Positions 3,687-39,676 of a DNA stretch of 64,000 bases are shown here, piece after piece. The DNA is from Schoenoplectus triqueter (taxonomy: Eukaryota; Streptophyta; Magnoliopsida; Poales; Cyperaceae). A program made the translations under genes and the position numbers. The stretch spans positions 186,001 through 250,000 of the forward strand of contig CAXKVV010002148.1 of NCBI GenBank assembly GCA_964058805.1, in the 5' to 3' direction. Positions within the stretch are counted from its first letter, which is position 1; each line of letters begins with the position of its first letter. The notes under the pieces were generated by a model. That model had not been told where the DNA came from. It ran no database searches and saw only the letters and a list, made by a program, of their open reading frames with translations.

Positions 3687-4002
3687 TGTGCGACCCTTTT
3701 TCGCGCGCCGCCGCACCGCCGCCGGGCGATGGGTTCTGCGGAAGAAGGACACGGAGATCCCTCCCGAGCGTGCATCTGATAGGTGTCGGCTGATTCTGCC
3801 AATTAGAGATATTTGGATGCACATTCAGGGGGTTTTTTAGTGATTGTGAGTTCTTGTAGATTCCGGTGGGCGCAAGCCCCCACCGTTAATTACCCTGGGC
3901 TACGAACCTCGAGGCACCTCTGGATCTTTGAAAGAGAGAAGCAAATAGTATAGTTAAGAGATGGGCAAGTGGTCGTCTAAGTTTATAAAAACGGATCTAC
4001 GG

Positions 4003-4545
4003 AAGATGAACCTACCAACAGACCGGTTCAATCTAGGGAAGACAAAACCTACAAACAGATCGGTTTTATCCTATGGTGGACGAACCTACAAACAGACCGG
4101 TTCAGTCCATGCCTCCTCGAGATGTAACCTTACCAACAGACCAGGTTAATCTCTTCATAGGGGGCTTGAGGTGAGTCTACATACAGACCGACTCGACCTC
4201 CGTTGATCTAGAAGATAAACCTACAAACAGACCGGTTCAATCTTAACTAGTCAACAACCAATCACACAAGATACAACTCAAAGCGCTGAGCCGGTTGATC
4301 TTGAGGTTGGTGAATCAGGAGAAGGGTGGATATGGCCCACGTGTTTCTTCTCACCGATCTTCTAGATCATGAATTCGTAGCACTAAGCCGATTCATAAAC
4401 CTAGGAAACACAATTGCACACAATGTCAAACATGAAGCGCTGGGCCAGTTCAACATTGAGGCATGTGTTAGTGAAGGAACCTACCTACAGAACGGTTCAC
4501 ATTCACTGTTTTGTGGATGAATCTACCAACAGACCGATTCAATCT
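4003..4545. repeat. Degenerate interspersed repeat, core CTACAAACAGACCGGTTCA
   Basis: At least seven imperfect copies of a roughly 20-bp core separated by variable spacers, for example near 4,010, 4,047, 4,085, 4,130, 4,172, 4,220 and 4,528. They are mirrored in the other LTR at 26,015-26,557. Variable spacing rules out a simple tandem array. Function unknown. Confidence 0.75.
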
Positions 4546-4744
4546 CACATTCTCGGGAAAATGAGTCAGGAGACAAACTCGTCGACGGACGAGTTCAGTC
4601 TTGCCAGCTCAAATGGTCATGAATTACTTGTTCATGACACCGAGTCATTAAGATGTCACTTCGTTCGGACATCGTAATGTTCTTCATCTTCAAAGTCGAC
4701 ATATCTCTCCATGCTGATGTCGTAGCTTTGGTCAATCTTCAACG

Positions 4745-5240
4745 AACGTCAAGATGTTCTTGTCTCGACTAATCATTCTACGTGTTGCATTACTTGTGCA
4801 AAATTACTATGTAGCCCTACACCCCTTGTGTGAGCGTATTCAATCATGAGTTACTTGCTCATGGCAGCGAGTCATTAAGATGTCACCTCTCTAGGACATC
4901 GTAATGTTCTTCTTCTTCAGAGTCGACGTATATCTTCATGTTAGTATCGTAGCTCTGGTTATTCTTCATCAAACATCAAGATGTTCTTGTCTCGATGTGT
5001 CTTCTCAGGTCGCTATCGAAGCCTTAATCTTCTCACGTCAAGATGTTCTTGTCTCAATGCATCTTCTTCATATTGCTATCAAAGCCTTACTCTTCTCACG
5101 TTGAGATGTTCTTGTCTCAACGTATCTTATTATTATTCATCAAATGTCAAGATGTTCTTGTCTCGACATATCTTCTCATATCACTATTAAATCCTTAATC
5201 ATCTTACATCAAGACGTTCTTGTCTTGACTAATCGTTCTA
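4745..5240. repeat. Six copies of a small hairpin repeat, core CAAGATGTTCTTGTCTC
   Basis: Copies lie near 4,750, 4,976, 5,037, 5,100, 5,146 and 5,209. The core holds the hairpin CAAGA-TGT-TCTTG. In several copies the flanks GTC and GAC, or GTT and AAC, extend the pairing with compensating changes. The same array is in the right LTR. It lies in the part of the LTR close to its element-sense 3' end. Confidence 0.75.
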
Positions 5241-5330
5241 AATGTTGTGTGAATATTCTCATGTGAGCATTTTTATTCATTTCAAAATATGCAAAGCCTA
5301 TATAATACTTTCTATTATTATGCATTTATC

Positions 5331-5370
<40 letters not shown>
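5331..5370. repeat. (ATT)n microsatellite in LTR
   Basis: About 13 ATT units inside the AT-rich part of the LTR (5,280-6,480). The same run is in the right LTR at about 27,342-27,381. A tyrosine-run reading frame here is an artefact of the repeat. Confidence 0.95.
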
Positions 5371-6872
5371 TTATTTATTCTATTTATCTATGTAGAAAAT
5401 TATTTACAAAAATAATAAGAAAAGGGGTAGCTATTAACTTAGAACTTTATTTATATTTTTGGGATTTTTATAATAGCTAAAATAGTAGAATTTTATTTTT
5501 ATTACCACTTAAAATAATAGAAAATAAAATGGCTATGATTTTTATTTGTATTTTTTTTTTAAAATGTTCATAATAGCTAAAGTAATAGGATTTTTATTAT
5601 TATATTCTACTATTCATTATGTAAGAATCATTTACAAAATTAAAAGGTAGTTAGCTATACTATTTTACCATTATTATTTTTATTATATTTTTTTTATTTT
5701 TAATATCTATAATAGCTAAAAAGAAATCATTACTAATATTCTATTCTATTTATTATACTATTCATTATATCTATTTCTATTATTTCTATTTATTATCTAT
5801 ATAAAAGTACAAGATTTTTTATTACTAGTCATAAGAGGTGAAATTCATTATGTTTTTATTATAACTATTATTTTATTACATTTTATTCATCAAAAGTATA
5901 TTTTTGTATATTTGTATAAAAATAACAAAAGAAATACAATTCATATTATAAAACTATATTATCATTCTTTATTATGAAAGAAAATGCATTTTACTATTTA
6001 TTACCATGGTATTATATTTTTGTATTTTTGTGCTATTTATTTATTATTCTTTTTACAGGAAAATATCAAGAAAATATCAATATGATATCTATTATTGCAT
6101 ATATATTTTTATCAAAGAATATAGCTAATCTCATCATTTATTATAGTATATTACTATCACTATTATAATTTCATGGAAAATCATTTGAAAAATTACTAAA
6201 ATATATCTAGTTATTATTTATGATTTTTATTTGTATTTTTGGAATTTTTGTAGTATTTAAAATGACAAATCAAAGCTAAGTCAAATATACCAATATATGT
6301 AATGTATTTTGCTTTTAAATTGTTTTATCATGATTATATTTCTAAAACTGGAATATTATTGTATAGAAAAATAGTATGAAAAATAAGAAAATTTTAGAAA
6401 CAAATTCGAGTCAATTTGGAGTTCAATAGCATTTTCAAATCATTTATTTACTCCATATTATCACTATTCTGTTATTATTTAATTAATGGGCTTAATCTGG
6501 GCCGCCAGATCTGCTCCAAGATTGGCGCCTAGTTTATTCAAATGTTTCATTTATATGTGGGCCGTTAGATCCAGTTGAGATACGTATTTGATATATGTAA
6601 GGCCCAGATCCTTTCTTGGTTTAATAATTGAATTTCCCGATGGATCCTGTCTGTTAATAGACCTCAAGATTAGTGCGCGCTTCAAGGTTCGTGCCAACGG
6701 ATCTCTCGTCTCTTCCAAGCCGTTTCCATGTCAGGATTCGCGCTGAGCAGCGCTTCCGGCGATCGGAGTACCTCTTCTACGATCAGGTCAGTACCTCTGC
6801 ATCGTCTTGCCTTGTAGAGTTCCTTTGCGGTTCTTGATCGAGAATCCATACGGTGAAAGATGTCGCACAGTG

Positions 6873-7172
6873 GTACCGGTCAATGCATCAATTAGAATTG
6901 GTACCGAGATGTTTCATTCACCAAATTCAACAGAATTAATCGTAGTTTTTAACAATTACAAGATCGATGAGCATCGCCTTGATATATTATCATGTTTTGA
7001 AGCAATTTGATTGACTCCTCTTGAGCTAGTAATGGTGCAGGACCACCTCATCATTTGTCAATGCACAGTACCAATTGGTACCGAGTCGTTTTTTTGCCAA
7101 ATTCGCTAAACTTAATCGGTTTCTTTCATAATTACAAGATCAATGAGTGTCGCTTGAATGTAATAAGCTGAT
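6873..7172. repeat. Direct duplication around GGTACCGAG in LTR
   Basis: Two diverged copies (about 6,873-7,000 and 7,050-7,165) share, in order, the blocks CAATGCA, AATTGGTACCGAG, CCAAATTC, TTAATCG and AATTACAAGATC(G/A)ATGAG. This is one of several duplications that enlarged the LTR. Confidence 0.7.
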
Positions 7173-7233
7173 CTTAGATGACTATGAAGGATATCATTCA
7201 GTGACAATTGTGTTGGAGCACTTGTGATTCAAG

Positions 7234-7255
7234 AATGGTACCGATCGGTACCATT
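7234..7255. repeat. Perfect 22-nt palindrome with two GGTACC sites
   Basis: The two 11-nt arms are exact reverse complements, meet in CGATCG, and carry GGTACC on each side. The palindrome is identical in the right LTR (29,245-29,266). It lies just beyond the GGTACC-containing duplicated blocks, so it may be a protein binding site or a structural element; neither is shown. Confidence 0.9.
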
Positions 7256-7313
7256 TTCAATTTCTTACCAACTTGAAGCATTCACTAACCATAATTATTC
7301 AATTAACACCCCT

Positions 7314-7650
7314 CAGGCCTAAAGGCACACCCAGCTTCAGCTAGGGCCAGTGGCTCACTGAGATTGCAATAGTGTTAATCGATTTAGCAATATACTGTTC
7401 TATTATCAGATTAAACAATTCCAATACAAAATTGCAAAGCCTAAGTTCCTAGCTGAATGAATCATGCAATTGAAGTGATTAAGAGACAGCAAGTTCATAC
7501 CTTAAGTCATTATGTGAATGGATACAAAGAAATTAATCAAGAAATGAAAATTTACCATGGAAACTCTATAATTATGCATTCTTAGCATTTGTGATCAATC
7601 CAGGCCTAAAGGCTCACCAATTACTTTGTAATTGGGCCAGTGGCTCACTG
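7314..7650. repeat. Paired hairpin modules with conserved flanks in LTR
   Basis: Two modules (7,314-7,360 and 7,601-7,650) share the left flank CAGGCCTAAAGGC(A/T)CACC and the right flank GGGCCAGTGGCTCACTG. Their centres differ: CCAATTAC-TTT-GTAATTGG in the second, and CCC-AGCT-TC-AGCT-A-GGG in the first. Both centres fold into hairpins although the stem sequences are unrelated. The same pair occurs at 29,325-29,371 and 29,612-29,661. Confidence 0.8.
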
Positions 7651-8397
7651 GATATTATGATATTATTCAACAATTAATTCTAATAACAAGAAATGGCAAA
7701 ATCAGAAAAGAAATAAAGGAGATTTTAAGAAAATAGACCCCAATAGCAAAATTGGTCAAGAAATTCTCATAAAATGTATCAAATAGCAAAGATTCCAGAG
7801 GAGATAACAAAAATATATGCTAATTAACCCAATTCATACGATTGATTACCTCAAGCTTTGACAGAAATTTCAATTATTCGAATTCTTCTTATTAGCTCTT
7901 AATAAAGACTCTCTCTTTCCTCTGTGATCACTATTGGGTGTATATAGGTGTGTGTATACTCTTGATTGCTCTTCTAATGACCTCTCCCTTCTACTGTTGC
8001 TGATTCTCCATTTATATAGGCTAGAACCGGCCAATTGAACCCAATTGCGATTGGTTGAGTGCCTTTCATCAGGATTGCCACCTTGGATGAATCTCTACCC
8101 TCCATTCTACTTCAATTAATGGCTGAGATTGATTTGTGTTTGTTGTGAAAACCGCCCAACTGCTTTCTGTTATGGTTTGACTGTGCCGCAACTCGTTTGA
8201 CTCCAATTCAACAGCTACTTTGATTGATAAGCAAGCCCTCTTATCAATAATTCATATTTAAATACCTCTGCACCATGGTTAACATTTTCTCTCTCTCAAT
8301 TTCACTAAATTTCGTTTATTTCAAAAGCCGGTTTCTGCCTCATTTCTTCTCTTGGCGCAATTCACTTCTTCCACTCAATCACTCACTCTTTCCATGC

Positions 8398-8615
8398 TAA
8401 TTGGCGTCGCCTTGATCTGAATAAGCTCTCTGATCGTTCAATTTGGCCTTTGAAGCGCCTATCAAGCTTGCCTCTTTATTACTATCTCCGGCGATTCTTC
8501 ACATTTGCACCTTCCTCTAACTCAATTGCTTCACAATCACCTCTCAATCGGCGTCGCCTTAGCTCAAGGAAGCTCCCTCTGTGCTCAATTTGGTGCTTGA
8601 AGCCTTCAATTACAT
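8398..8615. repeat. Direct duplication around GGCGTCGCCTT in LTR
   Basis: Two diverged copies, starting near 8,402 and 8,550, share GGCGTCGCCTT, AAGCTC, TCAATTTGG and CTTGAAGC in the same order, about 150 bp apart. Confidence 0.6.
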
Positions 8616-9269
8616 CTCCTTAGAATCGCTCCATTACTGTCTCAACTCAAACTGTGGTAATTTCACTATTCAACCCTTCCTTCACTGTCATCCCTTTGTT
8701 CTTACCCTTCTGACTGATGCATTGATGTTTATTGAATGCTTTTAAGTCTCTAAAATGGTGAGGCGCCATGGAAGGAAGATGATGATCGCGCGCGGGGAGA
8801 AGAAGAAGGAAGAGGGAGAGCGGGGAGAGTGTTCGGCTGGGATGGATGGCTCAGGCGCACGCGCACCAAAGCGCCAGAGGGGAGTAGGTCAGCGACTGGG
8901 GGAGCATGCACCAGGTTCATCTTCTTTCCATCTCTTGTTTTAAATTGAATTGCGCTGTATTGGATAAACAGGATGAATGGACTTGGTTTACATCTTTAGC
9001 TTATGATCCTAGCCTTATTCACCTGACTACTGGGTCCCACCTGTAAGGTTTTAAGCGTTTAAGGCTGTGAGGTTAGCAACTGATTAATGCTAATATGCTG
9101 AGGTGGCTCTTCCTGATTGGTTGATTGCTTGTTAAACAAATCCTTAACACTAATGACCTGTAAATGGTGGGTGATGTGGCTCTGCCTAGTAATGCCATGT
9201 GTGTTGTCATCTGCTGACCTGTACCAATCATAGGAAGCCATTTGTCATTCTTTATATACACTATATGAT

Positions 9270-9600
9270 GACATGGCACCAGTGAGTGCATGCCATGTGG
9301 CACTCAGTGGGGCCCACTTGTCAGTCGCCTTATAGCATAGTGGGATTCACAGTGGTGAGGTGGACCAATAAGGGTAGGCCACATGGCACCTGACTGTTGA
9401 AGTGGCCCTATAGCATGCTGCCATTTGTCCAGCTGTTGAATGAGATGGCTGCTGATGTGGACCAATGGCTGACCGCCATGTGGCATAGGTGGGACCCACT
9501 TGTCAGGTCTGTAGGGGTGTGGGGCCCACATGGCTGAGGTGGACCAATGGGGTGCTGACACGTGGCATGAGGTGGCCCAATGAGGTGCTGACACGTGTCA
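9270..9600. repeat. Cluster of GGGACCCACTTGTCAG and GCCATGTGGCA motifs in LTR
   Basis: Repeated short blocks such as GTGGACCAAT, CCATGTGGCA, GGCCCAC(A/T)TG and CCCACTTGTCAG alternate here and reappear at 10,430-10,765. The cluster ends with two GTGCTGACACGTG blocks. CACGTG is a G-box core, the site bound by plant bZIP and bHLH factors, so a regulatory role is possible but unproven. Confidence 0.6.
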
Positions 9601-10013
9601 CACCCTCTCTCTTCTCTGATTCGGTATAGGTGTGTTTAGGATCCCCAGTTTGCACCCAGATGAATCTCTGTCCCCAGATTGCACCCAGATGAACCCTTGA
9701 TTGAATCTCAGCCTTTGATTAATCTATTTATTCTGCCTTTATCTTCCCTGAATTTATTCTGATAGCTCCACTTATCCAAAAATTATGAAATTTTCACCAA
9801 AAATCCCTAAATTCATGATGATCATCCCTGTAATTTTTAATTCCATTTTTACCCCTCCTTCTCTGAATTAAAAATTCTTTTATTCATAAAACCCTATTAT
9901 TCTCTCTGAATTAATCCCTGATCTCAGTTGTAGCTCTGTGTCTCTGCCAATTATCTCCCTCTTGCAGAAACCACCCTAACTAAATACCAATTAGACTTAT
10001 ATTGATATTCATT

Positions 10014-10250
10014 AGGGCTTGATTTGATCAAATGCTGACTACTTATCAGCAATTAATACAAATCTAGACTTGATCAGGTGGTTGCTCCCAGCTTTGGCAC
10101 CTGATCAGTCTTGTGAAATTGACTTTCAATCCCTTAACATGAGGGTGACTTGGTCAAAGAACTGACTACTTATCAGTAATTGACACAAATCAAAGCATGG
10201 TTAGGTGGTTGCTCGCAGCTTTGGCACCAAGTCAGCCTTGAAAGTAAAAT
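10014..10250. repeat. Direct duplication (period about 128 bp) in LTR
   Basis: Copies at about 10,014-10,125 and 10,142-10,245 share CTGACTACTTATCAG, then AGGTGGTTGCTC(C/G)CAGCTTTGGCACC, and a closing CAGTCTTG or CAGCCTTG. Confidence 0.8.
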
Positions 10251-10487
10251 CACATTTGGAATTTCTCATGATTAGTTGCATCAAAATGCTAGCTTGGCAT
10301 TGACATCATTTCATGTAGTATAGGGATTACACTGCTTCAGCTCCTTCCTAGGGTTAGCTTCAAAGGCAGATTTCTAGGGTTCAATTCTGACCCTCTTCAA
10401 TAGGTCACTGAGGTGTGGGGTCCACCTGCCAGTGAAAATGGTCACATGGTGACTCATCAGATAGACTATGCTATTAGGTTCATCTAC

Positions 10488-10921
10488 AAGGGACTGCCAG
10501 GTGGGTCCCACTTGTCAGATAAAAATGTAATCAAATGGCTGACCCATCAAGAGATCTTCTCTCTCCTAAATCTCCCGAGGGTCAGCCACCTCGAATGAGT
10601 AGGAGGTGGCTGGGTATTTATATCCTTGCTCCATATTTAGGATTTCCTTGTGGGATTAATGCTTAACCTCTGTTCCGGGTTGGTTAGCTTTCTTAACAAA
10701 AATAGGCTAGGTCCATGTCATTGGAGCTGCTCATAAGGGACTGCCATGTGGGTCCCACTTGTCAGAAAAGATAAAATCACATGGTGACACCCAAGAGGTC
10801 TCCTCTCTCCCTCGATCTTCTTGGGTGTCACACATGCTGAGTGGATAGAGAATAGCGGGGTATTTATACTCTCCACTTGCGCCCAGCATTCCGTTGTGGG
10901 ACTAATGGATTTGTTCCGGGG
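10488..10921 (+). promoter_or_regulatory. Duplicated TATA module in the LTR, facing the mobile-domain gene
   Basis: Two copies of an about 190-bp module (10,488-10,680 and 10,735-10,921, period about 247). Each holds AAGGGACTGCCA, then GTGGGTCCCACTTGTCAG, an inverted-repeat block, GGGTATTTATA and finally TTCCGGG. The TATA-like boxes are at 10,615-10,623 and 10,861-10,868. They read rightwards, opposite to gag-pol and towards the mobile-domain gene that begins 0.4-0.7 kb downstream. I infer an antisense promoter pair. The same modules in the other LTR (32,499-32,691 and 32,746-32,932) would fire into the copia-1 remnant. Confidence 0.55.
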
Positions 10922-11054
10922 TTATGCAGCGACTTTTCCGATCAGTGGGCCACCTTTCTACTGCTCCCTCTCTTCTTCCCCTTTCTTATGATTTATCATC
11001 AATTTATTTCATTTATTCATCTATTCATCCTTGAAATTTTTTCAAGGGTAAACA

Positions 11055-11070
11055 AAGAGCCACCCACCAA
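11055..11070 (-). other. Possible polypurine tract of the Tat element (weak)
   Basis: On the minus strand the bases just before the 3' LTR read TTGGTGGGTGGCTCTT. This is G-rich but not a clean purine run. It is placed here because plus-strand priming must occur next to this LTR. Confidence 0.3.
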
Positions 11071-11330
11071 GACGAGTCTTGAACGCTCGAAAGGCTTGTC
11101 TTGGTGCATTATTCCTTATTATTCATCATTTCATTTCTCATGACGTCTTCTCTTCTTCGGGTATTGTAGTTTTATCTCATGACGCCATTCCGCGTCGCCC
11201 CTTGAGTCATTATCATTCTTTTTACGAGGATCCTAGCGATTGGACTCCTCTCGTCTCAGCCATTCGAGCGACTCCTGTCTACCCGCGAGGCGGCGGTTTA
11301 TTCTTCAGGGATGATCAGCCTCATGACATC

Positions 11331-14300
11331 ATGCCCCTTCAGCCCTTAGGCGTTGCTTCTACAGCTCCTCTGACACATCTCCTGGGCAAGGAGATTATTG
11401 ACGGGGAGGCTCACAGGTGGACTACTGCTCCCTTCATCACTCCCTTGGAGTGCCATGGATATCAGCTAGAGTGGACCCGGTATGTGCTCATGCGGGAGGG
11501 GACTCTGCTCAGGCGAGCCGGGATATATGACTCGGTTTTCTTGTCGATGTTTCATTATCATATCGACACACCCTGGCTACGGGCCTTTTGTGAGCGGTGG
11601 AACTATTCTACCAACACTCTGTTCATCGACGATCGGGAGCTGACTCCGACCCTCCTAGAGATACAGCAGTTGACCGGGCTGCCGATCTTCGGTCATTTCT
11701 ATGACGAGTTCATGGTCTCGCCCGCTGACTCGGGGGACTTCACTCGATTCCCGCCTTCTTTGCATAGGATTTATGAGATTTACCATTATTTACGGAGGGG
11801 GCATCCCGGAGTTCCGTTCAGACATTGGATCGCCTATTTCACCGATCGGGTCCATACTCGCCCTACGGGTCTGGCTTCCACCAGAGATCCATTTGGTACA
11901 GGTCGGCTCGAGATTCATTATGACGGCCCTATCCCATCTCAGGATACCCTGTGTTCACATGACGTGGATCGGGAGACTTATCTGACCGCCTTCATCTCTT
12001 GGTGGATTTGCTATTTCTTATTACCTAGCTCCCCCGCATACACCATTCGGCCTTCGGTGTTCATTATGGCGAGCCTGATCGCGCGTGGCGACAGGATTTC
12101 TTTGGCCGTGCCTGTACTGGCCAACATTTATAGGTGCCTCCGTGGTCTGACTTCATCTCGTAGTCCTTCACAGTGCCAGGAGCTGATCCCGTGGCATCTG
12201 ATTAGCGGATGGCTCCATTTACACTGGTCTGGCTCATATGATCCCGGCATGGCGGTCACGCTACGAGATCGTCTACCCTTATTGAGTGACCTAGCTGGGG
12301 TGCAGCCAGCTTCATTGACTCCGGAGGCTGCTCGGTATAGATTCTTTAGGAGCCGAGACCATCTGCGCTTCTCTCGAGACAGATCAGTGGCCCGTGGGGC
12401 AGCTAGGGTTGCTGACAGGATGGTGATTGACAGCAGGGTCCCCTCTTCTGACTCTTCTAGCATTCGAGCCAGGCCTATCGACTTGGAGTACCTGATCAGT
12501 ATTCGTCAGGGCTTTCTTCCTCTCAGATTGGGCGATTATATGTTCATCGAGCCCTATTCGCCACATCGATGCGCACATCAGTTTGGCTTGGATCAGGATA
12601 TTCCAGCACCTCTTCTCCGCCCTATATCACTGGCGGCTGATTTAGAGGGTATCGGATGGTGCTACACTCACCTCTTCCGACTAGGCACGGGCACTCGCTA
12701 TCAGATGGTATCCACCTCTAGGACTTCCACCTTCACGAGGCGTTATCAGCAGTGGTATTATGAGACCATTCGCTCCTACCAGTCGTATACTCCTCCGGTG
12801 GTCGTCCGGAGTACATGTCCGCGAGATGGCCAGCCCCTATTAGATGGCACCGTTTCGCGTGATCGCAGCCCTTTCCCGGCCATTGCTGCAGAGCCTGTCG
12901 ACTTTCAGGGTTTAGACAGCCGGTTTTCTCACGCTCCTGTTAGGACCGTTCTCACAGGTATGCTTCATCATCCCTTTAGGTTATTTCTTTTCGATAAGCC
13001 TTATCTCATTTCGACCAATTCTTCTTTGATTCAGAGCTGGCTTATGAGTATGATCACGCGGAGCCCGGGTTCTCGGTCCCTCGTCCACGAGTAGTCGGCG
13101 TTCATTTCCAGCCATATGTCGAGCCACCGGCTCCAGCTACCATGGGGAGAGATCGAGACGGCGCCTCTCAGCCGTCTTCTCCATCTTCTTTTCCTTCTCT
13201 CACTCCGGGTGATTTTCTTTATTGACTCGCCTATCCTTATTCGGGCGCACTTCATTTATATCTCTGATTAGGGTTTATTTTTCAGCCCGCGATACATCTC
13301 CTGTAGAGGTAGCCCGAGACGACATCATAGCAGATCTATCGGCGCCTGCGAGCACTGCCATTTCAGGGTTTTGCACCGACCTTGCCGTCGCAGGTTCGTG
13401 TGCTTCATTTAATACTTAGTTGCCATCATGCACTAGTATTTTCATTCTTACATGCAGATTTTACAGATCCTGAGGCCGATGACATGGCGTCTCCTCATCA
13501 CTCGGAGTCTTTCTTTTACGACGGTCCTGCCTCACCGTCGATCTTATTGGTGCCTACCGGGGATGGTGACTCCTTTGATGTGGTTCTGGGGCCAGTGCTC
13601 ACTCTTGCACGACCAGATGAGGCTTCTTCAGAGCAGGGGAGTCTATTGGCTGTCGAGCCCGCAGGCGACGAGCCACTACTGATCGAGGGAGGGCCATCTC
13701 ATGCTTCTTCATCTCCTGACGGGCAGCCTCTCATGGCCACAGATGGCAGAGTCTCGACTGAGCGGGTTGCAGTCGACTACGACTCAGGGTTGGATGAGAG
13801 CTGGCTGGTGGAGCAGCTATTCCACAGCCCAGAGATGGGGGTTCCAGCTAGCGAGGGTCTTGCCGAGCCTCATGCTTCTCCCGGTACCTTACATTTCCTT
13901 TTGTCATTTGCCCGTATTTTTCTTTTCCATGTATTTATGCTTTTCATTTTATTTTGTAGCCGGGTCTAGTGCACCTGCAGGTCCTCCTGAGGCGACCGAT
14001 ATCCCTGCCCCCGATTCAGTCCCGCCGGTCTCAGACGACGAGGCGATAGGTTAGATCTTCTCTTCCTTCTATTTCTTCTTAGGTTATAACAATTTGTCTA
14101 ACCCATTTATTTTACTTGCAGATGTTTCATCGAGGGATGTGCAGCTCGCCTTGGCCGCGCTGGCGGATGCACTCCGGGATACCTTCTTCGGAGGCTATCC
14201 GCTAGATTTCGAGATCCTGGACTCTCTGCCCAGCGGCTTCTCTTTCGATTGGTATAGGCTGATGCGGGATACCATCGCGCCAGCTCTACTCATTGCACCT

Positions 14301-14732
14301 CGTCTCGAGAGCACTTTCATTTCCAGGAGGTGTGAGGAGCTGCTCAGGGCTTACCAGGATGCGAGCTCTCTCGTATACCAGCACGAGTTGGAGATTCATG
14401 AGCTGCGCAGGCATTTGGAGGCCGCTCGACTCCACTATCTTCAGCGGCTCTCTTCTTGTGCCACTCTCCGCTCCATGGGAGTTAGTGGTGGGCCCGCTCG
14501 ACTGCTCGTGCAGGAGCTAGAGGACCACAGATTATCGGTGGAGGGCTTCTCCCGACATTTGGCAGGACGTCTCCCGGAGTTGCAGATTCATTCGAGTGCC
14601 CGAGATAGTGCCTTCACTCAGTTCTTGGACTTCGAGGCAGCTTCGGAGGAGGATAGGCACTCTCTCCATACTCATTTAGAGACCATCAGCACCGTGCTAT
14701 TAGAGTTGGAGTCCCGCTTTTTGGGCCCATAG
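11331..14732 (+). CDS. Plant mobile domain protein, six exons, antisense to its host retrotransposon
   Basis: Exons are 11331-12957, 13035-13208, 13286-13393, 13458-13883, 13960-14049 and 14122-14732. The introns are 77, 77, 64, 76 and 72 bp, all GT...AG and all phase 1. Internal exons are multiples of three, and the joined frame gives about 1,011 residues with a single final stop. Exon 1 carries a plant mobile domain: AGIYDSVF (residues 63-70), ERWNYSTNTLFI, LTPTLLEIQQLTGLPIFG (104-121), YLTAFISWWICYFLLP (217-232) and LANIYRCLRGL (263-273). Exons 3-5 encode an acidic Ser/Pro-rich linker. Exon 6 encodes a Leu/Glu/Arg-rich, probably coiled-coil, tail ending FLGP. Mobile-domain proteins occur as host nuclear silencing factors (the MAIN/MAIL group) and inside transposons. 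The start is uncertain: 11,331 is the first in-frame ATG, but the frame is open back to 11,052, so a 5' exon in the LTR is possible. Confidence 0.82.
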
Positions 14733-16468
14733 ACTGTACTTTCATTTTTTTCTTTCTCCCTTTCTTTTACTATATTTGATATAGGATGCATTGACATTTA
14801 TCATTTTGATCTCTTGTTGTGGATGACGCTTGTTTCTATTATTATCCTTTCGTCGCTTCCTCTGCAGCGCGAGGAAGTGTTCTATTGATTTCATGTTGTG
14901 CACCTCCAATCTTATTTGCAAAAGCGCCCTATTACAACTGCTTCGCAGCGTCTAAAATAAAAGGAAAATCTTACAACATCCTATTACATTGATTCTATAC
15001 ATCATTTCTTTTTATTTATGGCAATACAAAACTCAAGTAACCGTGGTATTTTACGGATACCGAACCTGTCTGTATTGACCTCTAGGCCGGGTACAGAATA
15101 AACCCGTTTATCCCTTTATTACTGATGGATAAACTTACCAGTATCAATTGGATTATGGATGCAATTGATAACACCATTTTGTGGATGCTCCTTATATATT
15201 TAATTGACATTTATTTGTGGAAGCTCACCCACTCTCCCCTCATTTATGCACCGTTGCGTGCTAAAGTGGAAACTCACATTCACTCATCTCCACTCAATTT
15301 GTTTTGTGGGGGTACTACCCTCAAACATCCATCACGCATCCCTGCGAGACAGGCTTTCATCGGGTAGGTTCGCTCTCCATGACCTGAGTCACTTCTTTAA
15401 GCGAATTACTTTATTTGACACTGCATGTCGGGCAAAAGCATAAACCCTTATTCTGACCCCTCCATGATCTATTTTGGGATTAGAAACAGATCACCTCCTT
15501 GGGCGTGTGGTACTTTTGCGGATGAATGTACCCAACCTAGTTTCTTTATATTTTAGCTACCCTCAAACATCCATCACGCATCCCTGCGAGACAGGCTTTC
15601 ATCGGGTAGGTCCGCTCTCCATGACCTGAGTCACTTCTTTAAGCGAGCCGCTTTGTTTAACATGAAATGTCGGGTACAAGCGTAAACCCTTGATCTGACC
15701 CCTCCATGATATGTCGTGGGATTATGACACACCATTTCTTCGGGCGTGTGGTGCTTTTACGGATGAATGCACCCAACCTAGCTTTGTATAACACTCATGG
15801 TGTCGGGGACAAAGGTGGCAACCCCTTATTGAAAATGTTTTATTATTTTTATTTATTTTCATTTTTTTTATTTTTTATGAGTATGAAAATAGGTTTTTAT
15901 TGTTTTACATATATATCCTTTTATTTTATTAGAAGAGGGCAAATTTTTGTTATTAGTGATACATGTTACTAATAATACGAGAGTTATTTATTCACATGCC
16001 CTCAGAAGCGACTATTTACTAGCCACCAATTTGCTCGACCTATCCCTTGGTTTGCGCCGCGGGCGACCAATATGAGCAACTTTCGTCATTGGGCAACAGA
16101 TGGTTTGAGGGACAAACTGCAAACCCTGCCCATTTTTGTGTTTATTCTGTATCAAATGGACAAACCCAGTGGTATTTGTATTGTGAGCCCAAACACCAAA
16201 GCTCTCGCCTTACATTCTCGCGTGGTTTTGGCGTTGAATTCTCTTATTCTATATTTTTTATTTTTTTTTTTATAGGGCTAAATGTGTTTGTGTGGTTTTG
16301 GATTTTTGGATGCATTCTATTTACAGATGCACAAGTAGGGTTTTGGGATTTTTATGCAAAAGTGGAGGTTAGACATGGGTTCGTGTTTCGTGCACGTGTG
16401 TGTAAACGAACACTTATTCCCTCCTTATTTATTTATAATAGATACTACTCGGTTGGCCCCGCTCCGGG
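14733..16468. other. Spacer between the 3' ends of the mobile-domain gene and pol
   Basis: The two genes converge on this 1.7-kb stretch. It holds no supported reading frame. It contains a 242-bp tandem duplication (separate entry) and T-rich runs near 14,745, 15,840 and 16,255 that could hold 3'-end signals. Confidence 0.6.
15315..15791. repeat. 242-bp tandem duplication in Tat spacer
   Basis: Unit 1 (15,315-15,556) and unit 2 (15,557 to about 15,791) begin with the same CTACCCTCAAACATCC. The first 60 bp or so are almost identical and the rest has diverged (for example GTGTGGTACTTTTGCGGATG against GTGTGGTGCTTTTACGGATG). Confidence 0.9.
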
Positions 16469-19400
16469 CTATGTGTAGTACTTCTTCAGATATCGCCCAT
16501 TAATCGGTGGCATGGGCCTTTCACCTTCATGGTCTATGAGTTGGTATGCGCCGCCTTCGTATACCTTCTCAATTACATATGGCCCTTCCCAGTTCGGGGA
16601 GAATTTTGGGCCGATGTGCCGGCCAATGATCGGCCTTTTAAGGACAAGAACAAGCTCCCCTTGTTGAAATGCCCTGACTCGCGCCATTTTATCATATGCC
16701 CTTGCCATTTTTGCCTGATATATCTCGAGGTTCTGTTGGGCTATTAGTCTCTTCTCGTCCATGGCATCCAACTCGTCCAGTCTAAGTTGTTGGCATTCGT
16801 CCATGGCCATATCATTTTGCATAGCCACCCGCAATGATGGTAATTCCACCTCAAGAGGGAGAATGGCTTCAACCCCAAAAGCCAGAGAATACGGGGTAGC
16901 TTGCGTAGGCGTTCGGTACGTGGTCCGATAAGCCCATAATGCCTCCTGTAGACGATTATCCCAGTCCCGTTGGTTGCCGTCTACGGTCTTCTTCATGATA
17001 TTTATTAGGGTTTTGTTAAAGGCTTCGGCCAGGCCGTTGGCTCTCGGGTTATAAATGGACGAGAATCTCCAGTCGATGTTAAATTGCTCCGCCAGGGCAT
17101 AGACTTTGGAGCTCTTGAAGGCTGTCCCGTTATCGGATATTATCCGTCGTAGGGTACCGAATCGGTAAAGGATGTGCGTCTTGAAAAACTTAACCACATC
17201 GGATGCTTTGACTTCTTTAAGCGGGACAGCTTCGGCCCATTTTGTAAAATAATCCGTTGCCGCCAGGATGAACCGGTGACCTCTCGACGTCGGAGGGTCT
17301 ATGGGCCCCACTATGTCTGTGCCCCACATATTAAATGGCCAAGATGCTACCGTGGGGTGCAACGGGTTTGGCGCTTGATGTATAAAAGGGCCATGTATCT
17401 GGCACATGCGGCACTTCCTTGCGTGCTCTTCACAATCAGCCACCATCGTGGGCCAATAATACCCCATTCGCTTGATCTTTAATTTCATCTTTGGCCCAGA
17501 CTGATGTGCTCCGCATAGCCCAGAATGAACTTCTTTCATAACCTGTTCGGCTTCAGGCCCTGATACACATCTTAGCCACAACTGATCATAAGACCTACGG
17601 TATAGCGTATTGCCCACATATGCATACCGTAGTACCCGTTTTCTTAGTTGATCAGCGATTCTTTTATCTTTGGGGAGGGTGCCATGCCGGAAGTATTCGA
17701 CGAACGGCTGCCTCCAATCATCGTCTTCTTCAGTCATCATTGTCTCTTGGCACTCTATTTTTCCTAGCCCGGCATTTTCATTAATCGCATCATCTGTTAT
17801 CTGACACAATGATAATGGCCTTCTATTGCGGACGATGATGTGGATTTCCGGCTCTGTCGGTTCACCCAGCTCCTTGGCGAGTTTGGCCAACGCATCTGCT
17901 TCACCGTTCACAGCCCTTGTGACCTTCTCGATGGACACGTACGGGATTTTCTTCATTAGTTCCATGGCCTTCTGGTGATATTGTATTAGTTCCGGCTTTA
18001 AGACCTTGTATTCGCCAATTATTTGATTTATTATCAGCTGTGAATCCCCAAAGATGCGTACAGCCTTGATTCCCAGCTCCAGTGATAGCTCTAGTCCGGC
18101 GATGAGTGCCTCATACTCTGCTTCATTATTTGTACATGGTTCGGTTAAGGCTAGAGAATGTCGTATTATCCCGCCCTCCGGGGTTACGAAGACTAGTCCT
18201 GCGCCAGCTCGCACAGTTGGGACTCCCGGGCCCGCAATTGGCTTGATTGAAGAAGCACCATCAAAGTACAATTCCCATATAGGGTCTCCTTCTTCAACAT
18301 GTAAAGTTTCCTCGTCGGGAAAGTCACATTTTAATGGGGAGTCATCTTGAATCGGGTGTGCAGCCAAGAAATCTGCCAGTGCCTGCCCCTTGATCGCCTT
18401 TTGAGGTGTATAGGTGATGTCGAACTCGGTGAGAATAATAGCCCACTTGGCCAGCCTCCCCGTCAGCATTGGCCGAGTCATCAGATACTTGAGAGGGTCC
18501 ACTTTGGATATTAATATGATTTTGTGGGCTAGCATGTAGTGCCTCAATTTCTTCACCGCGAAGATTAGGGCTAGGCAATGCTTCTCGATTGGTGAATACC
18601 CGTGTTCTGCCCCTACCATCATGCGACTTAGATAATATAGCGCATTTTGATTACCATCCTGGTTTTCTTGTGCCAATAGGGCTCCCAAGGATCCGTCCAG
18701 GGCGGTTGTATATAGGATGAGCTCCTTCCCGGGTATGGGCGCCGCCAACACTGGAGGGTTGAGCAGATATGCCTTGATTTCTTCAAAGGCTCGCTGGCAC
18801 TCGCCATCCCATTTAAACGGGATATTCTTCTTAGTCAGCCGGGTGAAGGGTTGGATTTTACCCGATAGGTTGGCTATAAACCGCCTAATGTACGCCAATT
18901 GCCCTTGCAAAGATCGCAACTGTTTTAAATTCTTTGGCGGGGATAGTTCAGTGATTGCTTTGATCTTGCCCGGGTCTATTTCAATTCCCCTGTGGCGTAC
19001 TACAAACCCCAGAAATTTACCGGATGATACCATGAATGCGCATTTCAACGGGTTTAATTTGAGCGCATGTTCTCTTAGGCGGTTGAAAACGACCTCAAGA
19101 TATTGAAGGTGTTCTTCATATGACATGGCCTTGATGACTAGGTCGTCCACATAGCACTCAACTATCTTGTGGATTAGATCGTCAAATATCTTCGTCATCG
19201 CCCGTTGGTAGGTGGCTCCCGCATTTTTGAGCCCAAACGGCATGACTTTGTAACAATATATGCCAATCGGCGTGCGGAATGCCGTGTGCCTCTCATCTTC
19301 TGGCGCCATTTTAATTTGATTATAGCCCGCATAACCGTCCATGAAGGAGAAGACTTCATAGGAAGATGTATGGTCAATTATGATTTCGGTTACTGGGAGC

Positions 19401-22400
19401 GGGAAATCATCTTTAGGGCACGCCTTATTTAGGTCCCGAAAGTCCACACAGATGCGGATCTGCCCATTTTTCTTCTTAACCGGGACAATGCTAGCCACCC
19501 ATTCTGGTGTTTCTTCTTCCCGTATGAAACCGGCGTCGATGAGTTTCTTTGTTTCCTCCACGACCTTTTCTTCGAGTTCTATTCTCATTCGCCTCGGCGC
19601 TTGCTTAATCGGCTTGAAGGTTGGATCAATTTTCAAGTAATGGACCGCCACGTTGGGATCTAATCCAGGCATTTCTTTATAACTCCAAGCGAAGCAGTCC
19701 ATATAACTTCTAAGGAATGCCTTCAACCTGTCAGCCACCTCTTCTGGCAATGACGCGCTTATGAAAGTTGGTCGTGGGTCTTCTTCTGTCCCCAGATTAA
19801 TTTCAGCTAACTCATCAACCGTGTTAGGCTCCTTTTCTAGCTGCTTCAAAGCATTTTTCAGGACCGGGGTATTGTCCTCTTCTGTTTCATTATCCGGCAT
19901 TTCAACAGAAGTCATGCAGCAGCTCTCTTTCATACGGTATTCGTTGAGAGACCCTTCAAAACATGCTGCATTATCGCAGTCATACCCTAACCCCCGGGTA
20001 TATTTTATTTTACCGTCCAGGCCCAGGACTTTATTCTGGCCGCCATTCCAGAGTTCATCAAAGCGCTTAGCCTCGGCCTTGGATATGTCTCTCAGACATT
20101 TTGCCCTTTTTGCCAATTTATACAGCTCCTTTCCAAAGGGATGAGATGCAGCGTCATCGCTCATTGCATTCTCTAATTCTTGTTCTATCACCCACTTCTT
20201 CCAAGTGTTGTGATCAGGGTTCTTCAGAGACTGGGTTGAATCGCTCTGATAGAAAATTATGGCCTTGTGGATGATAGTCTTCCCTTTGAGGCGCTCTACC
20301 TTTGCCGGCACAACAAAGGTTTTTAGGGTTTGAATGTGGTTCACCTCCCTTGGTATAAGGTCTTTAAAATGCCTTTCAGGAACCACAGTAATCTCCAGCG
20401 CTGCCATCTCCTCTTCTATCTCAATGTTCATGACTGAGTTGGAGCGATAGATTTCTTTAATCGGCTTACGTCTCGCAACCTTAGGTTTGCTAGGTACAGG
20501 AGTGTGCGAGATCGTATAAGCCACCCCTTTGCCCTTGCTATTCAGGTTATGCGGAGCTGGGTCTTGTTGAAAGCTCTTCGGGAGTTGGATCGTCCCATTT
20601 CTGTGCCCTTCTTCTATTAGGTCTTTGAATACCCAGCATTCTTCAATTGTATGGCCTAATATGCGATGATAAGGGCAGAATTCGCCTTCACCGGCTCTTT
20701 CTATGTCGGCGGGTCTCTTACAGACGGGAAGTGTTAACCCATTCTTTAGGGCCTGTTCAAATATCCGAGCTGTCTTATTTCTCAGAAAAGAGTATGGTTT
20801 ACTCTTCTTGACCTTGAGGGTTTGCATGACGGTCGGTTGCTTAGCTTTCATTTCTTCCCCCTTTGATTCATCTACTATAACAATTACCCGTTTGCCGCTA
20901 TCGGGTGCTTGTCTTTCGGGGGTCCCGGAACGGGGTTCGCTCGTCACTTCCTTGAGTAGCTCGGAGTTATAGATCGCGTTTTGCAGGTTTTCAATCATTA
21001 CCATGATTTCATTGTGTTGCGTCTTGATATCCTGCGTCACTTCCCATTGTTCAGACACCTCTCTTCTGTTATTTTCAACTTGGTGCCTTATTTCATTGAT
21101 CGCATTCCAGACGCGACCTTCAAAATTTTCCCGCCACGAGCGCTCTTCATTTATAGGCCTTGGCCTAATCGGGTTATCCCTTCCGCTACCGGGTCCTATG
21201 TTGATCATATATGACTCCTCACTTTCATTGTCTGTTTCGGGCCCTTTATATGGCTTCTTGAGGATGTGATAAATGATCTCTTCGTCAGACTCCTCTTCCC
21301 AGGGTTGACGATCATGGCCAGATTCTTCTCCCGAGGTGGTATCGCCCGAGTTGTTAGAATCTTCGGAGTCTTCTCCCGAAGTTGCCTCTATGATCTGAAT
21401 TTGAGGGGTGTTGGCTGGCTTAAAATTGAAAATGACCTCCTCTTCAGAATCACTTGCATTGATTTCGCTCGGTTTTATTTGGGCCTTATACGCAGCCACC
21501 TGTTTGAAGCGGAAGGTTGCTTCTTCACCCGACTTTCTTCCGGGTCTTTGGGCTCGAGCACCTCGGAGTTTAATATTAAATTTGACCTCTTCTTCTTCTC
21601 CGGATGAGGTATCAAATTTAGGGCCTTTGTTGAAGGGTTTCTGATCTGCTTTAGTTATAGGCCGGCTCGGCGTCACGGCGGATTTAGGCAGAAAATATTG
21701 GGCGTCATTGAATTTAATCTCATGCACCCCGAATGGTTTGACATCTCCGTCAATTCTCTTTTGCTTACCATTCTCGATATATTTCAGGCATTGGTGCAGA
21801 GTAGAGGGTATGACCTGATTGCTGTGAAGCCACGGGCGACCCAGCAACGCCCGATAAGAGGTTTCAGCGTCAATGACATAGAATTTAGTAGGCGCTCTTA
21901 GGCTTCCGCATTGCAGGTTTAGGGTTATAGCTCCCAGGGCCTTTTGGGAGTTTTGATTAAAGCCATGAATAATCACCTTTTCATCAGATAGGTTCTTCAC
22001 GTCTAAGGTGATAGTTTTTAGAGTTTTGAGCGGCATGATATTGATCGAAGACCCTGCGTCGACCAAGATGCGGCCAATCTTTTGCCCTCCACAATTTCCT
22101 GTGATGTACAGTGGGCGGTTATGGTCAACGGTGCCTATTAGGAGGTCATCGTCTGTAAAGTTTATACAGGCGGCCCGCTTGGCGGTGAATAGGGCTTCTT
22201 GCATATTTTGCTCTATGAAGTATGACTTGTACTTCTCAGGATCTTGCAAGGCCTGAATTAGAACCTCCCTTAGGTCTTGTGACATCATCAATGCGTCAAA
22301 TATGCTTAATAGCGCTGGGATCTTACGCAGATGTGCCAACACATTATATTCTTCGCCCGTCGACCGGGTCCTTTCTGGGTTCTTGCTTGGATTCTCGACC

Positions 22401-23773
22401 TCTTTTCCTTTATTCTGGACCTTGTCCTTTCCTTTATCGGAATCCTTGGGAGCCTGTCTCTCGGGTATATAAGTCCCGGACCGGAGCACGGCTTTGCATT
22501 CTTCACTCTTGGTCCCAGAGGTGCTTGCTTCTCCTTCATCATTCGGGAAGAACATCTCCTCTAATGTTGGCATATCTTCGTCGTGAGAAGAATATACCAT
22601 GTTGCACGAAGCACCCCAGATCTCTTCGCTTTCTTCTTTATTTATTTCTTCATCTACATTTTCTTCCTTTTGACCTAGGGTTAACTTCTCCCAGTCTTCT
22701 TTGGAGATGAAATGTTGAAGGGTGATCGTCTCGGGACTGCCCTGCTCATATTCTTCAATCTTGTTCTTTCTGGACTTGTTATTTCTATGCTTCTTTCTTT
22801 TCTTAAGAACCTGGTCTTGGCTCTGGTCCACCTTATAGTATATCCTGGGTTTTGGTGGGACCACTGGCGTGATGTCGTCTTTCCATTTCATGCCAGGTTC
22901 TTTCTTAAGAGCTTTAAGCATTTTAATCGATTTCTTCGATAAGTGCGTAGTCCATTGTTCTTCTTGTTCTTCGCTTAACTGGCCCGGGACTTTCTCTTCC
23001 TCATGAGAGATCGTGTTGGCCTGCTCATGGGCTGATGGGCTTTGCAAGAACCCTTTAGGTAAAGTAATTTCACCATTTTTATACGCCTTCTCGACCCAAT
23101 CTTTGAAGACCCAGCAATCTTCAATTGAGTGCCCTATTATTCTGTGGTATGGGCAAAAGTTGGGTTCGTCCGATTTATCGGCATCTTCCGGGCGTTTACT
23201 GGCCGGCAGGGTTAGGCCATTCTTCAGTGCCCCTCTGAAGATTTGGGCAACTTTATCTTTCCTGAAGGAGTACGGTTTAGATTTCTTTTGTTTGAGAGAT
23301 TCGAAACTCCGTGAACTCCCTCCTGGGTTGGGCCTGGGTCCTTTGTTATAATTGTTGCCATTTATGCCACTGCTGCCGCCTTGGGTGTCTGCGTTGGCAA
23401 CCATCTTATCTTTTAGCGAGGTGAATGCCACTTTAGTCTCGGCTCGGGCTCCTCGTTGCGGCCTATTATTCATAAAGTTCGGCATGGTATGCGGTGACAT
23501 CCTTTCCATATTGGATACCGATCTGAGCAAGTCTTTGAATGTGTTGACCTTTGTCACACCAAGAAGCATGCCCATCCACCCGTCAATGTTCTTCATGATT
23601 AGGTTGACGGCCTCATCTTCGGTTAATGTGCGGTCGCATTTGATGCTGAGGTTCCGCCATCTATTGATAAAATCTGTCATTGACTCCCCTTTCTTGGGTT
23701 TAGTGCTTGCCAGATCGGCTATATTTATCTTATCAGACACCATAACAAATCGTGCCCTGAACGAGTCTGCCAT
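16469..23773 (-). CDS. gag-pol: Tat gag-pol polyprotein, main open frame (2,434 codons)
   Basis: This frame encodes the Gag C-terminus and all Pol enzymes. Domains in order: the rest of the retrotransposon Gag domain (1-110); a CHHC knuckle (C207, H210, H215, C220); protease with VDAGSS (about 571-576); a long acidic linker; a second CHHC knuckle (C1033, H1036, H1041, C1046); reverse transcriptase with YVDD (1541-1544); a degenerate gypsy RNase H (YTTALDGSLG near 1688, first Asp lost); an archaeal-type RNase H (YFDGAS near D1838, GDSQ D1910, EAD near D1960); and integrase with HHCC (H2083, H2090, C2114, C2121... C2124) and D2153, D2214, E2250. There is no chromodomain. The annotated ATG is only the first after an in-frame stop at 23,819-23,821. 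True translation should start upstream at 25,558. Catalytic residues of protease, RT, archaeal RNase H and integrase look intact. Confidence 0.95.
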   Translation of the reverse strand: MADSFRARFVMVSDKINIADLASTKPKKGESMTDFINRWRNLSIKCDRTLTEDEAVNLIMKNIDGWMGMLLGVTKVNTFKDLLRSVSNMERMSPHTMPNFMNNRPQRGARAETKVAFTSLKDKMVANADTQGGSSGINGNNYNKGPRPNPGGSSRSFESLKQKKSKPYSFRKDKVAQIFRGALKNGLTLPASKRPEDADKSDEPNFCPYHRIIGHSIEDCWVFKDWVEKAYKNGEITLPKGFLQSPSAHEQANTISHEEEKVPGQLSEEQEEQWTTHLSKKSIKMLKALKKEPGMKWKDDITPVVPPKPRIYYKVDQSQDQVLKKRKKHRNNKSRKNKIEEYEQGSPETITLQHFISKEDWEKLTLGQKEENVDEEINKEESEEIWGASCNMVYSSHDEDMPTLEEMFFPNDEGEASTSGTKSEECKAVLRSGTYIPERQAPKDSDKGKDKVQNKGKEVENPSKNPERTRSTGEEYNVLAHLRKIPALLSIFDALMMSQDLREVLIQALQDPEKYKSYFIEQNMQEALFTAKRAACINFTDDDLLIGTVDHNRPLYITGNCGGQKIGRILVDAGSSINIMPLKTLKTITLDVKNLSDEKVIIHGFNQNSQKALGAITLNLQCGSLRAPTKFYVIDAETSYRALLGRPWLHSNQVIPSTLHQCLKYIENGKQKRIDGDVKPFGVHEIKFNDAQYFLPKSAVTPSRPITKADQKPFNKGPKFDTSSGEEEEVKFNIKLRGARAQRPGRKSGEEATFRFKQVAAYKAQIKPSEINASDSEEEVIFNFKPANTPQIQIIEATSGEDSEDSNNSGDTTSGEESGHDRQPWEEESDEEIIYHILKKPYKGPETDNESEESYMINIGPGSGRDNPIRPRPINEERSWRENFEGRVWNAINEIRHQVENNRREVSEQWEVTQDIKTQHNEIMVMIENLQNAIYNSELLKEVTSEPRSGTPERQAPDSGKRVIVIVDESKGEEMKAKQPTVMQTLKVKKSKPYSFLRNKTARIFEQALKNGLTLPVCKRPADIERAGEGEFCPYHRILGHTIEECWVFKDLIEEGHRNGTIQLPKSFQQDPAPHNLNSKGKGVAYTISHTPVPSKPKVARRKPIKEIYRSNSVMNIEIEEEMAALEITVVPERHFKDLIPREVNHIQTLKTFVVPAKVERLKGKTIIHKAIIFYQSDSTQSLKNPDHNTWKKWVIEQELENAMSDDAASHPFGKELYKLAKRAKCLRDISKAEAKRFDELWNGGQNKVLGLDGKIKYTRGLGYDCDNAACFEGSLNEYRMKESCCMTSVEMPDNETEEDNTPVLKNALKQLEKEPNTVDELAEINLGTEEDPRPTFISASLPEEVADRLKAFLRSYMDCFAWSYKEMPGLDPNVAVHYLKIDPTFKPIKQAPRRMRIELEEKVVEETKKLIDAGFIREEETPEWVASIVPVKKKNGQIRICVDFRDLNKACPKDDFPLPVTEIIIDHTSSYEVFSFMDGYAGYNQIKMAPEDERHTAFRTPIGIYCYKVMPFGLKNAGATYQRAMTKIFDDLIHKIVECYVDDLVIKAMSYEEHLQYLEVVFNRLREHALKLNPLKCAFMVSSGKFLGFVVRHRGIEIDPGKIKAITELSPPKNLKQLRSLQGQLAYIRRFIANLSGKIQPFTRLTKKNIPFKWDGECQRAFEEIKAYLLNPPVLAAPIPGKELILYTTALDGSLGALLAQENQDGNQNALYYLSRMMVGAEHGYSPIEKHCLALIFAVKKLRHYMLAHKIILISKVDPLKYLMTRPMLTGRLAKWAIILTEFDITYTPQKAIKGQALADFLAAHPIQDDSPLKCDFPDEETLHVEEGDPIWELYFDGASSIKPIAGPGVPTVRAGAGLVFVTPEGGIIRHSLALTEPCTNNEAEYEALIAGLELSLELGIKAVRIFGDSQLIINQIIGEYKVLKPELIQYHQKAMELMKKIPYVSIEKVTRAVNGEADALAKLAKELGEPTEPEIHIIVRNRRPLSLCQITDDAINENAGLGKIECQETMMTEEDDDWRQPFVEYFRHGTLPKDKRIADQLRKRVLRYAYVGNTLYRRSYDQLWLRCVSGPEAEQVMKEVHSGLCGAHQSGPKMKLKIKRMGYYWPTMVADCEEHARKCRMCQIHGPFIHQAPNPLHPTVASWPFNMWGTDIVGPIDPPTSRGHRFILAATDYFTKWAEAVPLKEVKASDVVKFFKTHILYRFGTLRRIISDNGTAFKSSKVYALAEQFNIDWRFSSIYNPRANGLAEAFNKTLINIMKKTVDGNQRDWDNRLQEALWAYRTTYRTPTQATPYSLAFGVEAILPLEVELPSLRVAMQNDMAMDECQQLRLDELDAMDEKRLIAQQNLEIYQAKMARAYDKMARVRAFQQGELVLVLKRPIIGRHIGPKFSPNWEGPYVIEKVYEGGAYQLIDHEGERPMPPINGRYLKKYYT

Positions 23774-23818
23774 CTCGTCCCAGGTCCTGATGCTGTTGTT
23801 TTCTAATGAATAGTACCA

Positions 23819-23821
23819 TTA
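23819..23821 (-). other. In-frame stop codon inside the Gag domain
   Basis: TAA followed by TGG, in the same frame as both flanking open stretches. The next frame opens 15 codons later at its first ATG. This is the only stop between 25,558 and 16,469. Confidence 0.95.
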
Positions 23822-25558: not shown

Positions 25559-25561
25559 TTC

Positions 25562-25600
25562 CTGCAAAAACAAAAACACTTGAAAATTATTAGTCATTTT
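25562..25600 (-). promoter_or_regulatory. Possible 3' splice site just before the Tat gag ATG
   Basis: The minus strand reads ATGACTAATAATTTTCAAG, then TGTTTTTGTTTTTGCAG, then GAA-ATG. That is a branch-point-like CTAAT, a T-rich tract and a CAG acceptor three bases before the start codon. No donor was identified. A spliced leader is an inference. Confidence 0.45.
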
Positions 25601-25675
25601 AGCACATAGAAGACCACTTGTATCTCTTAAGTATTCTATTTGCCTCTCTCTTCCAGAGATAAGAGGAGAATCTAG

Positions 25676-25693
25676 GTCCCACTGGGCGTGCCA
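25676..25693 (-). other. Primer binding site of the Tat element
   Basis: Five bases inside the right LTR the minus strand reads TGGCACGCCCAGTGGGAC, an 18-nt TGG-initial sequence of the type seen in plant Ty3/gypsy elements. I cannot name the tRNA with certainty. It confirms that the element runs on the minus strand. Confidence 0.8.
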
Positions 25694-25698
25694 GATCC

Positions 25699-27341: not shown

Positions 27342-27381
<40 letters not shown>

Positions 27382-39172: not shown

Positions 39173-39302
39173 ATATTTCGCATAAATTTTTTTTTTCTTA
39201 AACGCTAATTATACTGCCAACTTTTTTATTCTTTTCTTTCATGGTCAGCTAAAGCCGCCTACATTTTTTATTTCTATCTTACGATTTCTTTATATATATA
39301 AT

Positions 39303-39674: not shown

Positions 39675-39676
<2 letters not shown>
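39303..39676. mobile_element. Foldback MITE A in a (TA)n run
   Basis: Left arm AGTGAGATTATGATAATTCG; the right arm is its diverged reverse complement (CGAAACACCATAGCT). The arms extend inward to GTCCAAATGGCC(A/G)ATCCAAA on both sides. It is bounded by TATATA runs (39,290-39,302 and 39,677-39,708). It is the diverged sister of element B. No coding sequence. Confidence 0.75.

Follow-up and report, generated by a model that had tools for sequence, protein, structure and literature searches.

An antisense, intron-containing plant mobile domain gene inside a giant Tat-lineage retrotransposon of Schoenoplectus triqueter

The element and its antisense gene

We analysed a 64,000-nt window of the Schoenoplectus triqueter genome (GCA_964058805.1, contig CAXKVV010002148.1, positions 186,001–250,000 of the forward strand), in which a giant long terminal repeat (LTR) retrotransposon carries, antisense to its own gag and pol, an intron-bearing gene for a plant mobile domain (PMD) protein. 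The element is the one complete LTR retrotransposon of the window; it lies on the minus strand and measures 29,379 bp, with an internal region of 14,644 bp. Its 3′ LTR (3687–11054, 7,368 bp) and 5′ LTR (25699–33065, 7,367 bp), both on the minus strand, are 99.95% identical, with three mismatches and one gap over 7,367 bp. The LTRs end in TG…CA, and a target-site duplication, CTTGT, flanks the element on both sides. With assumed substitution rates, the LTR mismatches place the insertion at about 16–29 thousand years ago, in keeping with the young age proposed in a preliminary description of this sequence.

The PMD gene occupies the plus strand between pol and the 3′ LTR. Six blocks (11052–12957, 13035–13208, 13286–13393, 13458–13883, 13960–14049 and 14122–14732) join into a single open frame across five introns at 12958–13034 (77 bp), 13209–13285 (77 bp), 13394–13457 (64 bp), 13884–13959 (76 bp) and 14050–14121 (72 bp), all GT–AG and all in phase 1. 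Each of the four internal exons (174, 108, 426 and 90 bp) has a length divisible by three, and the terminal exon, 14122–14732, contains the stop codon; a candidate poly(A) signal, AATAAA, lies behind it at 14956–14961 (plus strand). Pfam recognises PMD (PF10536) in the joined protein with an E-value of 6e-26 and 91.9 bits against a cut-off of 34.9, and no other domain at E ≤ 1. The domain lies in the first modelled exon, which we place at 11170–12957; searched alone, this exon matched PMD as its sole profile at E ≤ 10, and DUF1985 was not found. The preliminary description had already given the exon–intron structure, the domain and the antisense orientation, all of which we confirm. Its reading as a whole stands in part: the start codon was wrong, and a sixth acceptor and the exchange of the PMD exon, both described below, were missed.

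The remaining coding capacity is on the minus strand. A pol frame of 2,449 codons (16469–23818) contains a protease-like region below the Pfam cut-off, reverse transcriptase (RT; RVT_1, residues 1447–1606), RNase H (RT_RNaseH, 1696–1799), a second RNase H (RVT_3, 1869–1981), an integrase zinc finger (H2C2, 2089–2142) and integrase (rve, 2161–2258). A gag-side frame (23819–25897) is separated from it, in this copy, by an in-frame stop within the gag domain. A second RNase H between the first and the integrase is the arrangement reported for Tat elements of flowering plants (PMC6317226); because it is present here, the element is a giant member of the Tat lineage (Ogre/Retand) of Ty3/Gypsy. In Ogre elements, a sense-strand stretch of about 270 bp, which is an intron in pea and Medicago, is reported to lie between the gag-pro and RT frames (PMC6317226). 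We found no such separating region in this copy, where a single 2,449-codon frame extends from the interior of the gag domain through integrase. The largest elements of a 2019 survey were about 24 kb long with LTRs of about 5 kb (PMC6317226). ARAGORN found no tRNA genes in the window.

Selection, intron retention and exon exchange

Copies of the gene were sought in 82 Mb of the same genome. Forty of 172 candidate places were scored and 20 regions fetched, 19 of which were full; together with the window they form a set of 20 full copies, the most window-like ones, so that the values below apply to the younger members of the family. The preliminary description had called for such a comparison and had named missing purifying selection as half of what would speak against it; we observed the opposite. 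Mean rates over 190 pairs were 0.0196 for nonsynonymous (dN) and 0.130 for synonymous (dS) substitutions, giving a dN/dS of 0.15, and 15, 10 and 33% of sites varied at the three codon positions. In the five wrong frames exon 1 gave dN/dS values of 1.1, 3.4, 5.0, 1.2 and 0.19, the last being as low as expected if its third positions are shared with the true frame. From the first exon (counted from 11331 to 12957) to the last, dN/dS was 0.10, 0.28, 0.42, 0.22, 0.40 and 0.09: both ends of the protein are tightly constrained and its middle loosely. For the C-terminal part of pol, the window against three copies of the B type introduced below gave dN of 0.008–0.011 and dS of 0.16–0.24, and purifying selection on the gene approaches that on pol.

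Insertions and deletions also differ between exons and introns. We counted a single distinct event across the 3,036 bp of exon, compared with 11 across the 366 bp of intron (binomial P of 2e-10 by length, or about 3e-5 when weighted by homopolymer runs, 24:11, worked by hand), and eight in the 55 bp behind the stop codon. The gene is intact in 13 of the 20 copies. Four contain one stop each (L043, L044, L048, L049), L054 has a frameshift, and five (L048, L049, L050, L052, L054) have lost one acceptor each, that of the 64-bp intron in four of the 19 other copies and that of the 76-bp intron in one; GT donors are present in all 20.

All five introns are also present in every full copy. Among 40 of 150 candidate places scored, no match crossed an exon–exon junction by more than a few bases: spliced retrocopies, which would have been proof of splicing, were not seen. 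Since four of the five introns are not multiples of three, and intron lengths drift between copies whereas exon lengths do not, we infer from the frame that the introns are spliced from an antisense mRNA. The genomic RNA is the opposite strand, on which the splice sites would not be read as such during transposition, so that new copies would keep the introns. The preliminary description had predicted this survival, and the copies bear it out; of its ‘splice-ready’ gene, the selected frame is observed, and splicing is what that selection suggests.

A PMD-profile search revealed eight loci of a second type, B, which match the window (type A) at 95% at the LTR end and 91% in the 3′ part, but at just 63% over 11090–13080, in a replaced cassette that spans 11078–13080 (plus strand); three of them are about 95% identical to the window from the last exon into pol. 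Among 40 of 165 candidates scored, type B was present in no fewer than 22 places (92% or above), of which three were partial. Exon 1 is under similar constraint within both types (dN/dS 0.10 within A and 0.12 within B), and the comparison of A with B gives a dN of 0.29 and a dS of about 2.8, a saturated value that is a sign of great age only. A midpoint-rooted tree built on the shared 3′ part places the eight B rows together (98/98), nested within 23 A rows. The three older elements fetched (L064–L066) have a B-like exon 1, about 80% identical to B, on a backbone of about 73% identity that is about equally distant from A and B. Relatives of the whole gene occur in separate, older families. With the B group nested in A, the cassette divergent and a B-like exon 1 present in older elements, the most likely history is that an A element acquired its PMD exon from an older B-type family in a single event and then multiplied.

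The same comparisons bear on where the gene begins. The preliminary description gave a frame of about 1,011 codons; the joined frame is indeed open, and this length corresponds to a start at ATG 11331, the first in-frame ATG. That codon reads Thr in the B version and is thus not conserved. Upstream of it, positions 11169–11330 varied at 9, 3 and 20 sites by codon position (54 each; 24 sequences), and 11118–11168 at 7, 7 and 7 (17 each); 11060–11330 is free of indels in the 20 full copies. The protein alignment of B copies reaches back to residue 43, at 11178. The coding pattern thus begins at about 11170, behind an AG at 11168–11169 (plus strand) whose context is TATTGTAG|TT in A and TTATTCTAG|AT in B; the phase is 1 in each case, and the same again in older-B copies. 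Hence a further phase-1 intron probably ends at 11169, with an upstream exon outside our model, or else the start is non-ATG. On this pattern the protein would comprise at least 1,064 codons, plus the first exon if there is one.

A first exon (ATG…GT in the right phase) was not found upstream in 12 LTR copies, nor over 10830–11229 in ten sequences, some of them more diverged. A candidate at 10905 was rejected because its ATG is lost in L035 and three older-B copies, and a donor at 11048 because L065 lacks it and there is no in-frame ATG ahead of it (checked by hand). Three more candidates, one at 10197 (in 12 of 12 copies) and the others at 10468 and 10535, are located upstream of two TATA-like TATTTATA boxes at positions 10614 and 10860 (10614–10868, plus strand), which read towards the PMD gene and may form an antisense promoter. 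The boxes sit in a tandem LTR unit about 245 bp long, of which the copies have one or two. The nearly identical 5′ LTR should hold the same plus-strand boxes near its right end, from where a promoter would read outward into flanking DNA from 33066. Just inside the 3′ LTR boundary, a hairpin at 11066–11106 adjoins the presumed polypurine tract and lies at the 5′ edge of the swapped cassette. All families have a recognisable form of it, in which two pairs covary, ACCAAGAC/GTCTTGGT in A and ACCAAAGC/GCTTTGGT in B and L037; older-B copies contain mismatches (19 distinct sequences, found with a pattern that presumed the stem ends).

Fold of the PMD exon, a candidate target array and neighbouring DNA

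In a comparison of predicted models, the fold of the PMD exon matched the DNA-bound part of VANC21, for which a structure is deposited (PDB 9lnj, by its title). For the other 21 aligned proteins, DUF1985 was not one of the 25 families listed out of 36. A search of PDB sequences with the PMD exon gave no match at E ≤ 1. The PMD profile gave seven, all at E of 0.1 or worse (T-cell-receptor chains and GH3-1), and a DUF1985-like profile one; we took all of these as chance. Two DUF1985-like frames elsewhere (L068:1267–2079 and L069:1333–2148) also match PMD weakly and may be a sequence bridge between both families. Three loci (L009, L010, L011) encode PMDs that score far better against the profile (E 1e-72 to 1e-52) and do not match the element protein; these may be MAIN-like.

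A possible target lies in the 3′ LTR, where the near-palindrome CAAGA-NNN-TCTTG occurs in five copies at 4750–5222. It is the sole palindrome with at least three copies that is not all A/T, with arms of 5–6 and spacers of 2–6 tried. There are four near-matches in L070 and six in L072; L071, the far LTR of an older-B copy placed by a guessed distance, gave no LTR match.

In the neighbouring DNA, copia gag, Pol_BBD and integrase frames follow directly after the 5′ LTR (33066–34898), so that the element sits inside or beside a Ty1/copia element. A second, copia-type element (55332–64000; frames 57514–61418, minus strand) is flanked by 679-bp stretches of 100% identity (55332–56010 and 63322–64000, the latter cut by the window end) and is probably very young. 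A leucine-rich repeat frame of R13L1/DRL21 type (290–1309) is possibly part of a plant immune receptor gene, and 39291–41348 is A/T-rich with large imperfect inverted repeats.

Proposed role, alternatives and meaning

PMD frames in Gypsy elements are already known, and counter-silencing by PMDs made by transposable elements (TEs) has already been suggested. A PMD extra frame was reported in 57% of Ogre elements (PMC6317226), and the PMD-A clades (A1, A2) as exclusively Gypsy-encoded (PMC5418596). The present gene resembles these in being a PF10536 extra frame in a Tat-lineage element; the relevant passages of the two papers do not describe orientation or introns, whereas here the gene is antisense, with five introns and a sixth acceptor, between 7.4-kb LTRs. 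It shares the position between pol and 3′ LTR, the antisense orientation and the suspected DNA binding with the TRP28 open reading frames (ORFs) of Retand elements and with Grande gene23. An antisense TRP28 (PF04195) ORF was reported in all but two of 63 Retand clusters (PMC11963269); we did not find PF04195 in the joined protein at E ≤ 1. Those genes are described, in the passages concerned, as ORFs without introns (PMC11963269, PMC7264820), and domain and element size differ. The Ogre gag-pro/RT intron is also an intron in a Tat-lineage element, but on the sense strand and only partly spliced (PMC6317226). VANC of the Arabidopsis VANDAL elements (Mutator-like elements, MULEs) is an element-encoded accessory gene with introns, a matching fold and repeated short motifs in non-coding parts (PMC5735166); the present case differs in being an antisense gene of an LTR retrotransposon, with no detectable DUF1985 in the PMD exon, and is known from sequence and models. 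The host PMD-C proteins MAIN and MAIL1 share the domain and are, in contrast, products of host genes that promote silencing (PMC5418596). As far as open-access searches reach, the antisense multi-intron PMD gene under selection, the exon exchange and the fold link to VANC are new; a 2011 survey of Ty3/gypsy extra ORFs and supplements outside that scope may describe antisense or spliced PMD frames, and the authors of 9lnj may have noted the likeness to PMD. A 2020 review called for antisense and spliced transcripts to be examined (PMC7264820), and PMD function has been described as unknown or still to be determined (PMC5418596, PMC8616336, PMC9289625).

We propose that the accessory gene is spliced as any ordinary plant gene would be, with rightward transcription that starts on the side of the 3′ LTR. 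Its protein would consist of a PMD with a VANC21-like fold, a loosely constrained linker and a conserved C-terminal part, and would most likely bind short repeated motifs in the long LTRs of its own element. By analogy with VANC and VANDAL, such binding could lift silencing or activate transcription there. We consider the chances of this proposal about even. The preliminary description had suggested that the protein evades or uses host silencing; the fold match adds support, the role itself being conjectural.

An unlikely alternative is that the PMD acts as a decoy, competing for the partners of the host PMD pathway (MAIN/MAIL1/PP7L) and so poisoning that pathway, without binding the element's DNA. 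MAIN and MAIL1, which act in silencing, do carry a retrotransposon-related PMD (PMC5418596), and a 2021 review proposed TE-made PMDs as counter-silencing (PMC8616336); yet the fold matches that of an anti-silencing protein bound to DNA, and a decoy gives no obvious reason for the two very different domain versions in one genome. It is distinctly unlikely that the protein serves replication or nuclear import, unrelated to silencing, as suggested for accessory proteins of Retand and Grande antisense ORFs. Selection approaching that on pol would suit such a function, and GENE23 of Grande is reported to be nuclear, with a promoter of its own (PMC7264820), but searches of the joined protein and of the PMD exon gave PMD alone, and the fold points to DNA binding. 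There is a slim chance that the antisense RNA matters rather than the protein, pairing with genomic RNA, which covers the same stretch on the other strand, and tuning the element via small RNAs; in tea, 175 phased small interfering RNA loci were reported at PMD genes, with 476 (21 nt) and 43 (24 nt) loci in all (PMC10673657). A non-coding role, however, predicts neither the codon-position pattern nor the exon/intron indel contrast, both of which are strong. A captured host gene fragment decaying as a passenger would fit the stop, frameshift or lost splice site in seven of the 20 full copies, and is very improbable given 13 intact ones, a dN/dS of 0.15 where a value near 1 would have supported decay, and whole-gene relatives in separate, older families.

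Returning to the proposed LTR-binding protein, its putative DNA-binding exon is a module, which one lineage swapped whole, most likely through recombination with an old relative, before multiplying. More tentatively, PMD may be a VANC-fold, sequence-specific DNA-binding domain. Encoded by an antisense intron-bearing gene, it would serve LTR retrotransposons throughout the flowering plants as an anti-silencing factor directed at the element itself, able to change its DNA-binding module by recombination; the host silencing factors MAIN and MAIL1 would in that case be related to an anti-silencing weapon whose effect has been reversed.

In this element, an accessory gene has traded its putative DNA-binding domain between families as one unit, and the carriage of introns by a retroelement is solved by placing the gene on the opposite strand. 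PMD sits in host silencing factors, in MULEs and in Gypsy elements, and the fold link to VANC21 makes a direct test of its function possible.
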